Shown: positions 15,520 to 20,553 of the stretch, piece after piece | How positions within the stretch are numbered: the first letter of the stretch is position 1 | Layout of the letters: every line of letters begins with the position of its first letter | From: a virus | IMG/VR virus record: IMGVR_UViG_3300032267_000877 | Coordinates: 1-22,174 of that record | Length of the DNA: 22,174 nt | Direction: 5' to 3' (one strand) | Translations under genes and position numbers: made by a program | The notes under the pieces: model-generated | What the model was told of the DNA's origin: nothing | Database searches by the model: none | Seen by the model: only the letters and a program-made list of their open reading frames with translations

Positions 15520-15776
15520 TAGGACGCCCCGTATCGCTTGGTCTCCATGACCTTCTTGCGTCGTGGCTCTGCCTTCTCGTGACGCTTCTGGGCAGTCTTG
15601 CTCATACCCTTCTGGTCCTTAGCAACACCACCCTTAACGACGACCTTGCCCTTCTTGGACTTCCCAGCAGCAGAGAGCGCCATCGCAATTGCCTGCTTCT
15701 GCGGATGACCCTTATGCATCTCCATGCGAATGTTCGCGGAGATCGTCTTCTGTGACGAACCCTTCTTCAATGGCAT
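15519..15776 (-). CDS. Small basic phage protein MPLKKGSS-type (85 aa)
   Basis: Starts at ATG 15776, overlapping the metallopeptidase-like stop as TAATG. The N-terminal 40 residues ([20 protein letters not shown], then [18 protein letters not shown]) are a widely conserved phage motif: a short basic start followed by a helix with the [11 protein letters not shown] pattern. The remainder is Lys/Gly-rich and probably disordered. The function is unknown in the phages where it occurs. Its company with the 51-aa and 152-aa basic proteins suggests a cluster of small nucleic-acid-associated or virion proteins at the operon head. Confidence 0.85.
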
Positions 15777-16165
15777 TAGTCTTCTCCTATGCTCGGCATC
15801 GGCAGCAGCCGAGCGAGAGGTACGGAAAGCGAGTCAGCCGCTCGCTCCGTTTCAACATCCCACATATGGCTGAGGATGCTATGGGCCGCCGATCCCAGCG
15901 ACGCCTCCAACGCCTCAACGAGACGCTCCACCCCTGCCTGGTGCAGGTGGATCAGTTCGTGCGCTACCACCCGTCGGATCTCGTCCTTCTTCTGCTTCCA
16001 GAGATCTGGAGAGAAGCGGATGGTAGCGTTATACAGGTTCGTGCTGACTTCTACATCAGCCCAGGAATCGTCAGGCGGAGAACCAGCTCCTACCGTGATG
16101 GTCCAATGCCCCAACCCGAGGATGTCCTTGCAGCGATTGACGTAGTGTGCGATTGCCTTGGACAT
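15776..16165 (-). CDS. SprT-like zinc metallopeptidase homologue (129 aa)
   Basis: HELIH (H69-E70-L71-I72-H73) is a complete HExxH zinc-binding and catalytic motif in a helix, followed by a further His at 75. ETERAADSL (105-113) downstream supplies a probable third zinc ligand, Glu105 or Glu107. The N-terminal half is mixed helix and strand, with LGHWTITV and [10 protein letters not shown], as in small SprT/WLM-type or minigluzincin peptidases. It is shorter than cellular SprT and lacks the C-terminal zinc ribbon. The ATG at 16165 has AGAGGGGG upstream. The substrate is unknown; processing of virion proteins or removal of protein-DNA crosslinks are both conceivable. Confidence 0.75.
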
Positions 16166-16198
16166 TCGACCCCCTCTGAATCGGTGGCGTTGTAACTA

Positions 16199-16657
16199 TT
16201 AGTAGGCCTTCTTCTTTGCGCCCGTCTTGCGGGTTCCTGAGCCACGGTTGAGTTGGGTCTCGCTCACAACAAAGCCAGGGGATTGATTCTGTCCCGACTT
16301 TCGAACAATTGACTCCCTTCGCCCGCCCGCTCCGAAGGTAGTTGTCTTCATTTCGGCGCGAGGGAATCGGTCAATGTACCCACCGCGCGGGTCAACATAC
16401 GGATCGTTAGAATTTAGGCGGGTTTCAATGGTGTTTCCCTTTTTTTGAGAAATGACATAAGCGTTCTGTTCCGCTTTTACAACTGGTTTGCCCTGCTGCG
16501 AGGCGGTGACTAGCCTCTTCGTGCTTCCATTGGCGTACACTACATTTTGGCTAGAATTACGTACTCGATCCTTCTTATTCGTCGTCTTGTCCGTTCCCTT
16601 GTAGATTGAGCCGCGACCTGTCTTTGGCTTCGGCATTGCCTTCTTTGGTGTTGCCAT
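16199..16657 (-). CDS. Basic, low-complexity protein of unknown function (152 aa), first gene of late operon
   Basis: Starts at ATG 16657 with a clear AAGGAG about 7 nt upstream and is the first gene after the late promoter and structured leader. The protein is Lys/Arg/Gly/Asn-rich with a basic N-terminus (TPKKAMPKPKTGRGSIYKG) and a basic C-terminal tail (GSGTRKTGAKKKAY). A middle segment, NDPYVDPRGGYIDRFPRAEM, is more ordered and acidic-aromatic. No domain, signal peptide or membrane helix is recognised. It may be a DNA-associated or minor virion protein, but nothing specific supports this. Confidence 0.8.
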   Translation of the reverse strand: MATPKKAMPKPKTGRGSIYKGTDKTTNKKDRVRNSSQNVVYANGSTKRLVTASQQGKPVVKAEQNAYVISQKKGNTIETRLNSNDPYVDPRGGYIDRFPRAEMKTTTFGAGGRRESIVRKSGQNQSPGFVVSETQLNRGSGTRKTGAKKKAY

Positions 16658-16688
16658 TTCAAAACTCCTTGGGTTTCCCCATTCTTAA

Positions 16689-16706
16689 TCTGGCCTAGCG
16701 GCCAGA
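16689..16706 (-). promoter_or_regulatory. Hairpin in late-operon 5' leader
   Basis: Perfect 7-bp stem TCTGGCC/GGCCAGA with a four-base loop, lying 32 nt upstream of the first late ATG. There is no T-tract after it on either strand, so it is more likely a leader structure than an intrinsic terminator. Confidence 0.6.
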
Positions 16707-16707
16707 G

Positions 16708-16752
16708 CGAACTCTATTGAGTGAGAGACCGTTCTTACGGAGGGTGAGTTCG
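16708..16752 (-). promoter_or_regulatory. Nested stem-loop in late-operon 5' leader
   Basis: An outer 7-bp stem CGAACTC/GAGTTCG (16708-16714 and 16746-16752) encloses a small CCGT/ACGG hairpin with loop TCTT (16729-16740). Together with the adjacent hairpin it makes most of the roughly 110-nt leader structured. Confidence 0.5.
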
Positions 16753-16776
16753 TTGCCCCCTCTGTGTCTCCCCCAT

Positions 16777-16806
16777 ATAACCAGAAAAACGGGGGGTTTA
16801 TGTCAA
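16777..16806 (-). promoter_or_regulatory. Promoter of the leftward late operon
   Basis: On the minus strand TTGACA (16806-16801) is followed after 18 nt by GGTTAT (16782-16777); a shifted TTATAT is also possible with 20-nt spacing. Transcription would start near 16770, giving a leader of about 110 nt before the ATG at 16657. It is the only consensus-like promoter upstream of the gap-free minus-strand gene run. Confidence 0.6.
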
Positions 16807-16817
16807 AAATAACATCA

Positions 16818-16831
16818 TTAAGATGTCTTAA
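16818..16831. promoter_or_regulatory. Palindrome adjacent to late promoter, possible operator
   Basis: TTAAGATGTCTTAA is two perfect 6-bp arms separated by TG. It ends 11 bp upstream of the -35 box of the leftward promoter, a usual place for an activator or repressor dimer. No matching regulator is identified in the window. Confidence 0.45.
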
Positions 16832-16865
16832 CCTTTATGAGGGAGGCTGTTGAGCACAACTTAAC

Positions 16866-16897
16866 AGGGTTTCGTTAACAGATTGGGGTGAAACCCT
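16866..16897. repeat. Inverted repeat AGGGTTTC/GAAACCCT
   Basis: Two perfect 8-bp arms are separated by 16 bp. There is no flanking T-run. It could be a protein-binding site or part of an origin; its role is unknown. Confidence 0.5.
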
Positions 16898-17022
16898 TCT
16901 CAAAAGGGGGGTGGCCTTATCAGAAGGGGTGTTCATTGCGGGGTTGGGTATTCCTACCCCGCACGCCCCGCCCGCCAGACTTGCTACGGGGGGAGGGGGG
17001 CGGCATAAATCGTGCCAACCTA

Positions 17023-17061
17023 CGACAAGCGCCCTTGTCGAGCAGGACAAGCGGCCTTGTC
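17023..17061. repeat. Two tandem palindromes 22 bp apart
   Basis: CGACAAG-CGCC-CTTGTCG (17023-17040) and GACAAG-CGGC-CTTGTC (17046-17061) share the same arms, and their centres are 22 bp apart, about two helical turns. This is the classic geometry of paired operators on one DNA face; iterons are the alternative. Confidence 0.6.
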
Positions 17062-17127
17062 GAGGGGGGAGGGGAGTGGAGAGGGGGCGTTACCCCCTAG
17101 CCCGTAGCCGATACCCGCCGCCCGTTG

Positions 17128-17153
17128 AGGGGCTACCCTGGGCGCTAGCCCCT
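17128..17153. terminator. GC-rich inverted repeat at the end of the small minus-strand ORF
   Basis: AGGGGCTA/TAGCCCCT, 8-bp arms with a 10-base loop, overlaps the stop codon of the minus-strand ORF at 17145-17336. There is no U-tract. It may end that transcript or block read-through between the divergent units. Confidence 0.35.
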
Positions 17154-17336
17154 AGCCCCCCGCCCATCGCCCCCGCCTAGCCGGGTAGCATTCGAATAGA
17201 GCCAGAATACCCATATGGCCGCATATGCCCCTAGGATCCACGGAGCTCGTTTCTCCCACCTTTCGGGTGTGTTGATATTCCCCCCGCCCGGATCGCCTCT
17301 CTCCGTGGCTCCTAGACCCCTATTCGAATAGTACAC
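17145..17336 (-). CDS. Possible small one-helix membrane protein (63 aa)
   Basis: GTG-started frame on the minus strand inside the divergent region. Residues 32-47 (PWILGAYAAIWVFWLY) form a convincing transmembrane helix flanked by RWEKR and a Gly-rich basic tail. Codon choice (TAT-TCG-AAT, CTA, GGG) matches the real genes just to the right. Against it, the ribosome binding site is weak, the orientation is isolated, and GC-rich DNA makes chance ORFs common. No family is recognised. Confidence 0.35.
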   Translation of the reverse strand: MYYSNRGLGATERGDPGGGNINTPERWEKRAPWILGAYAAIWVFWLYSNATRLGGGDGRGARG

Positions 17337-17379
17337 CCGTTCGGTTTGGATGGTTGCGAAATCTTAACCTTCTACCCCA

Positions 17380-17408
17380 TTGCGCATTGCCTAGGAGTAG
17401 GCTAGTCT
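17380..17408 (+). promoter_or_regulatory. Promoter of the first rightward unit
   Basis: TTGCGC (17380-17385), 17-nt spacer, TAGTCT (17403-17408). The -35 is weak but the spacing is ideal, and a hairpin begins seven bases after the -10, as in the other rightward units. Confidence 0.5.
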
Positions 17409-17415
17409 CTGGGTA

Positions 17416-17434
17416 GGCGGGGGCTATCCCCGCC
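17416..17434 (+). promoter_or_regulatory. 5'-terminal leader hairpin, unit 1
   Basis: Perfect 7-bp stem GGCGGGG/CCCCGCC with a five-base loop at the predicted transcript start. It is followed by AGGAGGG and ATG 17460. Confidence 0.65.
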
Positions 17435-17459
17435 ACGAGCTCTAGGAGGGCAATCGATT

Positions 17460-17930
17460 ATGGGAACAGAGAGGGAATTCATCTGCAACCGTTGCGACGG
17501 GGGGTACTACTCCTCTGACCCGGCTACGGATCGCAACGGGCTATGTGGCGAATGCGCGGAGTTGTTCGCCTATTCGAAACTAGCCCGCCAGACTCTCCGC
17601 TCGCATGAGGGGCGGGGGGATAGTGTCAGCGCACAACTAGAGATGGGCTACCCTTCGCACGGCGAAGCGGGAGAGGTTACCTACCTAGTACGGGAGTACG
17701 GGGGGAGCATCCCCAAGCAGACACTCTGCGCCGCTCACAACGCCCTCTATGTATGGGACGCCTTGAGCGCGGATCTTAGCGGCGAGGATCTCGCCGCCCA
17801 TTACGCAACGCAGGATGTGGCGGGAAACTGCGACACCTGCAACGAGTTTGCGAGGGGGGACGTAGAGAGGCGCCCTAGGGGGGACGCCCATTGCGCCACG
17901 TGCCGTTGCAATAAGGGGGGGCGATCATGA
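17460..17930 (+). CDS. Two-zinc-ribbon protein of unknown function (156 aa)
   Basis: First gene of the rightward cluster, with AGGAGGG nine bases before ATG. The N-terminus carries CNRC (C9, C12) and CGEC (C29, C32), a four-Cys zinc ribbon. The C-terminus carries CDTC (C124, C127) and CATCRC (C145, C148, C150), a second one. The middle (residues 35-120) is mixed helix/strand with an isolated Cys90. No DNA-binding helix or enzyme motif is visible. Small zinc-ribbon proteins in phage early regions often bind nucleic acid or host transcription or repair proteins, but no target can be named. It overlaps the next gene as ATGA, so it heads an operon of at least four genes. Confidence 0.85.
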   Translation: MGTEREFICNRCDGGYYSSDPATDRNGLCGECAELFAYSKLARQTLRSHEGRGDSVSAQLEMGYPSHGEAGEVTYLVREYGGSIPKQTLCAAHNALYVWDALSADLSGEDLAAHYATQDVAGNCDTCNEFARGDVERRPRGDAHCATCRCNKGGRS

Positions 17931-19787: not shown

Positions 19788-20048
19788 ATGGCATACCGAT
19801 ACACGGAAAACGACGTGCGAAGCGCCCTCATTGGGTTATGCAGGGCGGCGGGAGCTCCCGTAGCCGGAGGCGTAGGATCGTACCAGTTGAGGGCAATCGA
19901 TAGCACGGGCGCTCAGGCGCTCTTTGTGCAGGTCAATGAGCATGGCGGCGTGCGTCGCCTAATTCCTGGATACACGGCGAAGACTAAGCGCGAGCTTTGT
20001 ACGATGGTGCAAGCGTACCGCCAGGGGTTTGAGGCGGCGCGTGCATAG
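19788..20048 (+). CDS. Small phage protein of unknown function (86 aa)
   Basis: Starts two bases after the previous stop, with AAGGAGGG upstream. An alpha/beta arrangement: an N-terminal helix (ENDVRSALIGLCRAAG), a beta-meander (GSYQLRAIDSTGAQALFVQV), a Gly turn (NEHGGVRRL), and a C-terminal helix (TKRELCTMVQAYRQGFEAA). The layout resembles short actinophage proteins with a C-terminal helix after a GG turn, but I cannot name the family with confidence. It overlaps the next gene by eight bases. Confidence 0.8.
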   Translation: MAYRYTENDVRSALIGLCRAAGAPVAGGVGSYQLRAIDSTGAQALFVQVNEHGGVRRLIPGYTAKTKRELCTMVQAYRQGFEAARA

Positions 20049-20553
20049 CCGGGCGGTGTGGGCGGCATATGGTATGGCCGCCCTCATCGTTGCGTGCATC
20101 ATGTTGGGCTATGTCGACGGCGTGCGGGGGGCTGAGGAGCCGCCCCGTACGCCGCACGGCGTACCTATGTCTGGCGTTGCTACGTGGTACGGCGCACGAT
20201 GCCCGCGAGGGGTGTCGGTGTATGGCCGTACCGATACCTGCACGCCCTACAAGAGCGTTGAGCAGGGCGGGCGCGGCGGCGAGCTTGTGCTCTATGCCGC
20301 CGTCGGTACGTTTACCTACTACGCCAAGCCGTACCGGGTGCGGGTGTGTGTACGCGGTGGCACAACTTGTGTCATCGCCGTCGTGCGCGACTATTGCCAC
20401 GGCGCGTGGAAGGCCTTGCGGAAGCCCTGGAATAGCGCGAGCCGGGTCATAGATTTGAGTCCGCATCTCTGGGTCGCCCTTGGGGTTCCGCTCTCGCGTG
20501 GCATCATGTATGTCGAGATCACAGAGTTAGGAGGTGTACGCAGGGGGTATTGA
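20041..20553 (+). CDS. Secreted RlpA-like double-psi beta-barrel protein (170 aa)
   Basis: Residues 5-30 form a signal or anchor helix (VWAAYGMAALIVACIMLGYV) with a cleavage-like site near GAEEPP. The mature part starts with SGVATWYG (44-51), the hallmark of RlpA-type double-psi barrels. It continues with VVRDYCHG (114-121, D117) and RVIDLSPHLWVALG (135-148, D138), ending LSRGIMYVEI. Five Cys (54, 67, 103, 110, 119) suggest one or two disulphides in the exported form. Related barrels occur in lytic transglycosylase-like RlpA, Rpf proteins and expansins, all acting on cell wall. GTG 20041 has GAGG six bases upstream; TTG 20029 is possible. The enzymatic activity is not certain from sequence. 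Confidence 0.75.
   Translation: MHSRAVWAAYGMAALIVACIMLGYVDGVRGAEEPPRTPHGVPMSGVATWYGARCPRGVSVYGRTDTCTPYKSVEQGGRGGELVLYAAVGTFTYYAKPYRVRVCVRGGTTCVIAVVRDYCHGAWKALRKPWNSASRVIDLSPHLWVALGVPLSRGIMYVEITELGGVRRGY

Follow-up and report, generated by a model that had tools for sequence, protein, structure and literature searches.

What function is served by a pair of near-identical palindromes placed between the divergent operons of an uncultured phage? The window analysed here, one whole linear virus sequence of 22,174 bases, is part of the genome of an uncultured tailed phage. The large terminase (phrog_2, 4.7e-17) and a portal-like protein (phrog_156, 9e-9) are encoded on the minus strand in its left part, and its right part carries small plus-strand ORFs. 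A divergent gap of ~800 bp (16658-17459) separates the ORF starts at 16657 (-) and 17460 (+), and within it lie two copies of GACAAG-N4-CTTGTC. The original prediction, made from the sequence, regarded these as sites for cooperative dimers of a regulator controlling early/late switching and added that repeated palindromes can also mark an origin. Our analysis partly supports this interpretation: the palindromes are probably the iterons of a phage replication origin. An origin of this kind is ordinary, and what is unusual is its intergenic location without a recognisable initiator.

Results

The phage and its control region

In the phage database, neither a megablast of the whole window nor a tblastn with its large terminase returned a match. 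A tblastn with the major head protein of a relative (G005) returned 31 records with titles beginning Bacillus, Streptomyces, "Bacteriophage" and others. Because all of these records are below 60% identity and their first words are mixed, no host was assigned. The first plus-strand ORF had zero relatives in viral_contigs with the peptide patterns used, and a further early gene (20029-20553, +) weakly resembles DPBB/lytic transglycosylase (RlpA-like) proteins, with a score under the Pfam cutoff. Two Rfam lncRNA matches in 16190-17700 were rejected as chance, their scores being far under the gathering thresholds. The features of the control region are collected in Table 1.

Table 1. Features in and around the divergent control region of the window
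Feature	Position	Strand	Basis
First minus-strand ORF flanking the control region	16199-16657	-	no family match
Putative extended -10 of the late operon, TGGTTATAT	16775-16780	-	by eye, conserved position
AT-rich 45 bp (76%), candidate unwinding element or promoter upstream region	16796-16840		composition scan
Dyad TTAAG-N4-CTTAA by the late promoter	16818-16831		also in L072, L076, L082
Conserved block around TTATCAGAAGGGGTGTTCATTGC	16915-16959		comparison of relatives
G-run GGGGGGAGGGGGGC immediately upstream of the iterons	16988-17001	+	also in relatives
Degenerate second dyad GGCAT-AAATC-GTGCC	17002-17016	+	direct read, comparison of contigs
Palindrome / putative iteron 1, GACAAG-CGCC-CTTGTC (GACAAGCGCCCTTGTC)	17024-17039		direct read, pattern search, alignment
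Palindrome / putative iteron 2, GACAAG-CGGC-CTTGTC (GACAAGCGGCCTTGTC)	17046-17061		direct read, pattern search, alignment
Inverted repeat AGGGGG-CGTTA-CCCCCT	17082-17098	+	dyad listing, relatives
Putative early promoter TTGCGC-N17-TAGTCT	17380-17408	+	by eye, homologous position in L003, L072, L082
First plus-strand ORF	17460-17930	+	no family match

The palindrome pair exceeds chance expectation

Direct reading confirmed the predicted pair, whose earlier start at 17023 includes one flanking C, with a start-to-start step of 22 bp. No further copy with up to two mismatches exists in the 22,174-base record, and a backwards control pattern has 0 matches there. At three mismatches the total is 9 matches where shuffles predict 9.26, which puts the 7 weak matches at chance level. 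Dinucleotide shuffling of the window produced a pair of dyads with the same 6-bp arm and the same spacer within 60 bp in 1 of 200 trials, and shuffling of the divergent gap did so in 19 of 2000. The gap contains 12 listed dyads, with a single palindrome sometimes counted in more than one overlapping form; shuffled versions average 2.9, and 8 of 2000 contain at least 12. Within each palindrome the arm centres are ~10 bp apart and successive palindromes are stepped by 22 or 23 bp, which places all half-sites on one face of the helix.

The array is conserved at a single genomic location

Relatives were gathered through a weakly SprT-like gene (15776-16165), which gave 50 loci. The 19 near relatives (L003-L021) encode an SprT-like protein at least 90% identical. 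Conservation in relatives, on which the prediction depended, is complete among the 12 near relatives that extend to the site: all 12 have the palindromes, and the other seven (L011, L014, L015, L018, L019, L020 and L021) stop short of the site or are without it. Ten relatives have two copies and two (L004, L010) have three, with steps of 22 or 23 bp, so that copy number changes by whole 23-bp units. The proposed check for more copies in the full genome was negative, as in 14 contigs searched whole the palindromes were confined to the control-region site (L018 and L020 have none). Three further relatives found through the sequence of the conserved block (L072, L076 and L082) retain the block and are without GACAAG palindromes; L072 has another pair, TGAGG-N4-CTCAGGTCT, 70 bp apart, and L076 has a single copy of the same. 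The palindromes are thereby found in 12 of 15 relatives picked independently of the motif. Among 31 more distant loci (L022-L052), none has GACAAG-N0-8-CTTGTC, many are without an equivalent region, and the conserved block is untraceable except for weak partial matches to one 14-mer.

The relatives' genomes are ~41 kb, and their early operon encodes a DnaB-type helicase (PF03796, 2.4e-93; phrog_19, 3.5e-104); the window stops short of the expected place of this gene. The ends of one 40,620-base relative contig (G005, L007/L059) overlap by 27 bp within the control region, suggesting a circular map for a record that is classed as linear, and the contigs of several other relatives likewise break in the control region. 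In a distant clade (L028, L031-L034, L036, L037, L041-L043 and L046), the SprT-like gene is followed in many contigs by 372-397 bp before the sequence stops, possibly at a physical genome end.

Other elements are held at fixed distances from the palindromes. The downstream distance from TTATCAGA to the start of the first iteron is 106-108 bp in 11 of 12 contigs and 125 bp in L012, the late -10-like sequence and TTATCAGA are 146-147 bp apart in 12 of 12, and GCG(A/T)(T/C)ACCC occurs 24-25 bp past the last iteron in all 11 contigs measured. Of the 20 contigs examined that bear iterons, 13 have a second dyad, TGRCAY-N5-GTGYCA, near them, and the 3 contigs without iterons all lack it. The 45-bp AT maximum of the window adjoins the late promoter and is ~185 bp from the palindromes; it also falls in the gap in relatives G003 and G001 and is tied with two other places in G005. 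The sequence within 100 bp of the palindromes is GC-rich, and in 8 of 10 relatives the nearest 40-mer of at least 65% AT begins 210-216 bp upstream of them. The late-operon leader (16658-16776, -) is conserved in 21 contigs, with stems that appear by eye to be exchanged in L072, L076 and L082 (for example UGGCC-GCUA-GGCCA versus CCAGCC-GCUA-GGCUGG). Its single-sequence fold has a z of -1.9, with 11 of 200 shuffles folding equally well, and it is possibly a structured regulatory leader RNA.

The palindrome is probably recognised as sequence

In an alignment of 28 copies from 13 contigs (the window and 12 relatives), collected with a pattern that itself fixes most arm letters but at a fixed position that makes a missed copy unlikely, 10 of 12 arm columns are invariant compared with 0 of 10 loop or flank columns (Fisher p 1e-4). 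In near relatives the outer arms GACA/TGTC never vary, whereas spacers and linkers do. A one-sided A-to-G change (GACAGG, left arm only) is present in 6 of the 28 copies, the inner pair is broken in 3, a loop G is nearly fixed, and no copy has a compensatory, both-sided base-pair change. The invariant arms and the lack of compensatory changes point to probable recognition of the sequence itself, of the kind that protein dimers would provide. The predicted same-face dimers are therefore upheld as regards the two-turn phasing, and for the dimers themselves the invariant sequence suggests such binding.

Similar pairs occur in replication-initiation genes of unrelated phages

A relaxed scan of viral_contigs (GACA-N8-TGTC-N6/7-GACA-N8-TGTC) returned 48 stretches, of which 12 belong to the known relatives and 28 to unrelated contigs; the other 8 (L086, L088, L090, L092, L094, L100, L107 and L119) are more distant members of the group, as judged by protein similarity. 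In these distant members the array occupies the same block with altered inner arms, the outer arms being fixed by the search itself; L090 and L100 have the same array. In the unrelated contigs 20 ORFs lying over the pair were scanned, and 13 of these (L084, L085, L087, L096, L098, L099, L102, L108, L111, L113, L115, L117 and L118) match PHROGs replication-initiation, O-like, DnaD-like or "replication protein/primosomal" families. One of the others is primase/helicase-like (L095), one is Hoc-like (L091), and five (L093, L097, L101, L103 and L109) have no PHROG match. For 11 of the 13, the first dyad falls 0.38-0.55 of the way along the ORF, and in four unrelated contigs (L087, L089, L110 and L118) a DnaB-like gene is 0.3-0.75 kb from the pair. 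None of the initiation families drew matches from two or more of 85 further ORFs at these 20 loci, with families of a single member possible beyond those listed. Two contigs (L109, 2338-2571; L116, 366-599) contain seven GACA-N8-TGTC dyads, grouped into two clusters and stepped by 22 bp.

A reversed-arm pair, CTGT-N8-ACAG, gave 46 stretches, 30 of them with an overlapping ORF, and served as the control. Given that this pattern resembles the enterobacterial SOS box and has origin matches of its own, it was used as a control for architecture and not for chance. Initiator families were found in 7 of its 30 ORFs and UmuD-like families in 4. The GACA arms are enriched over it whether counted by ORF (13/20 versus 7/30, p 0.007) or by contig (13/28 versus 7/46, p 0.006), with contigs that are not fully independent. 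Of the 28 unrelated contigs, 11 have at least three dyads within 150 bp, compared with 5 of the 46 control contigs. Since the reversed arms are also found at initiator genes, the architecture carries much of the signal: paired 16-bp dyads at a 22/23-bp period mark phage origins whatever their arms, and also some operators. Bacterial and archaeal genomes, when scanned with the GACARG pair, gave a single match in a Spirochaetia MAG (L083, ~710-830), a 19-bp minisatellite of GACAAG-TAAT-CTTGTC that is unrelated to the phage.

Discussion

Our analysis favours the suggestion that the palindromes mark an origin, by way of the motif scan, which led to initiator genes, and of the mid-gene position of the pair within them. 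What the analysis establishes is the palindrome sequence and its phasing, a conservation in which the outer arms stay invariant, the confinement of the array to one genomic place, and the DnaB-type helicase of the relatives. Each palindrome would be occupied by an initiator dimer, all on one face of the helix, and adjacent dimers would cooperate. The resulting complex would then open the DNA, perhaps at the AT-rich stretch ~185 bp away or at an unrecognised site, and the phage's own DnaB-type helicase would be loaded. Because the array is intergenic and outside any recognisable initiator gene, the initiator would presumably be an early protein that has escaped recognition. No initiation family was matched among those listed (25 of 44 families) for 80 early-strand ORFs of four genomes, and 10 longer initiator candidates matched none at E<=1. 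The structure model of the protein upstream of DnaB (pLDDT 53.3) is too poor for a fold search.

Several observations count against an origin. No initiator was recognised among the early ORFs scanned, the reversed-arm control also reached initiator genes, no AT-rich tract adjoins the palindromes, most genomes have just two copies, and L072, L076 and L082 share the block without GACAAG palindromes. In addition, the one-sided drift (GACAGG on the left only, and the loop G) is unexpected for a perfectly symmetric site. GC skew, proposed as a check for an origin, does change sign at the region, but this tracks gene direction and neither GC nor AT skew has an origin signature beyond transcription polarity. 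As skew follows the direction of transcription, this check is uninformative.

The location of the palindromes between divergent genes would also suit tandem operators, at which two repressor or activator dimers, cooperating through looping or bending, would govern the divergent early and late promoters. Invariant arms and half-sites on a single helix face would be expected of such sites as well, and dyad pairs of the control motif are also found at UmuD-like genes. However, the late -10 and the early -35, both putative, are ~244 bp and ~318 bp, respectively, from the palindromes, and these distances, from promoters that were placed by eye, argue against a simple operator. A consensus promoter scan missed both promoters, its sole match being inside a gene; equivalents of the early promoter are TTGTCG-17-TAGGAT in L003 and TTGACA-type sites in L072 and L082. 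No repressor or HTH regulator was matched among the window-side proteins scanned, although the early proteins mostly lack any match. Extra operator copies are absent from the 14 contigs searched whole, and a repressor family was matched by 0 of the 20 ORFs scanned over the pair in unrelated contigs. Control of early/late switching is thus not supported for this pair, ~245-320 bp from both promoter-like sites and with no regulator family found among the proteins scanned near it, and we consider tandem operators unlikely.

Two further explanations have even lower probability. The one-sided changes would be accounted for if the palindromes acted as plus-strand RNA hairpins, for example in an early leader, read as GACARG-NGNN-CTTGTC: arm position 5 changes from A to G, giving plus-strand G.U pairs (6/28) and never the reverse, and loop position 2 is almost always G. 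Against this, the 28 copies have 0 compensatory changes even though the late leader nearby swaps its stems (by eye), no promoter was found to transcribe the palindrome site, the right arm is CCTGTC in L088 and L107, and the A-to-G changes may be few events on a strand that is G-rich. RNA hairpins are therefore improbable. A nucleoprotein site unrelated to initiation, such as a centromere-like parS or a packaging pac site, would explain an isolated array of two or three copies at one genomic place, and a conserved small-terminase-like protein is present. This is also improbable, as the only partition candidate is an unconvincing phrog_164 match (best E 0.001, 2 of 80 ORFs) and the terminase-like gene is ~3.2 kb away, with a structure model that is too poor for a fold search (pLDDT 46.8).

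The part of these results most worth following is the GACA-N8-TGTC iteron sequence shared among unrelated phages. Tentatively, and with the balance of probability against it, GACA-N8-TGTC at a 22/23-bp period could be an iteron "dialect" common to the initiators of many unrelated phages, with the present group having an intergenic origin and a new, unrecognised initiator family. Our literature search found no published description of a GACA-type paired motif. If true, the motif would provide a sequence handle on the origins of uncultured phages, for which a short pattern scan finds candidates without annotation, and would mark a ~41-kb phage group whose origin is apart from any recognisable initiator. 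Such an initiator would be findable directly through its binding to the 40-bp target.

The palindromes work, we propose, like an iteron origin, and the comparison with known systems clarifies in which sense. CI/Cro-type tandem operators share phased palindromes between divergent operons, but lie at or adjoin the promoters they control; the palindromes here are away from the promoters, themselves putative, and no repressor was found. Of the attributes of a lambda-type origin, at least two phased repeats with dyad symmetry are present in the window and in 12 of 12 relatives, and a phage-encoded helicase or loader is found in the relatives, the window ending earlier. The array is not inside an initiator gene and has no adjoining AT-rich tract, and we therefore do not file it as a lambda-type origin. 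For iteron origins in the wider sense, the motif and its period do occur at replication-initiation genes of unrelated phages (13/20; control 7/30).

In lambda, the origin lies in the middle of gene O, and the minimal unwinding unit is stated to be two iterons and an AT-rich tract (PMC7466680). The likeness is that of short repeats bound by initiator dimers, of which few suffice, followed by helicase recruitment (PMC7466680), with binding being a prediction for the present phage; the GACA-N8-TGTC pair of unrelated contigs is also lambda-like in lying mid-gene in O-like genes. Unlike the lambda origin, the present array is intergenic, has two or three copies of another sequence, and has neither an adjoining AT-rich tract nor a recognised O-like gene. 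The origin of PLE, a satellite in Vibrio cholerae, is intergenic and noncoding and has three semi-palindromic iterons to which RepA binds (PMC8263062). Its repeats are ~30 bp and its RepA is known (PMC8263062), whereas here the dyads are 16 bp with no known initiator. The PLE origin is nonetheless the closest published layout, and its origin module varies between lineages (PMC8263062), as does the palindrome slot here in L072, L076 and L082.
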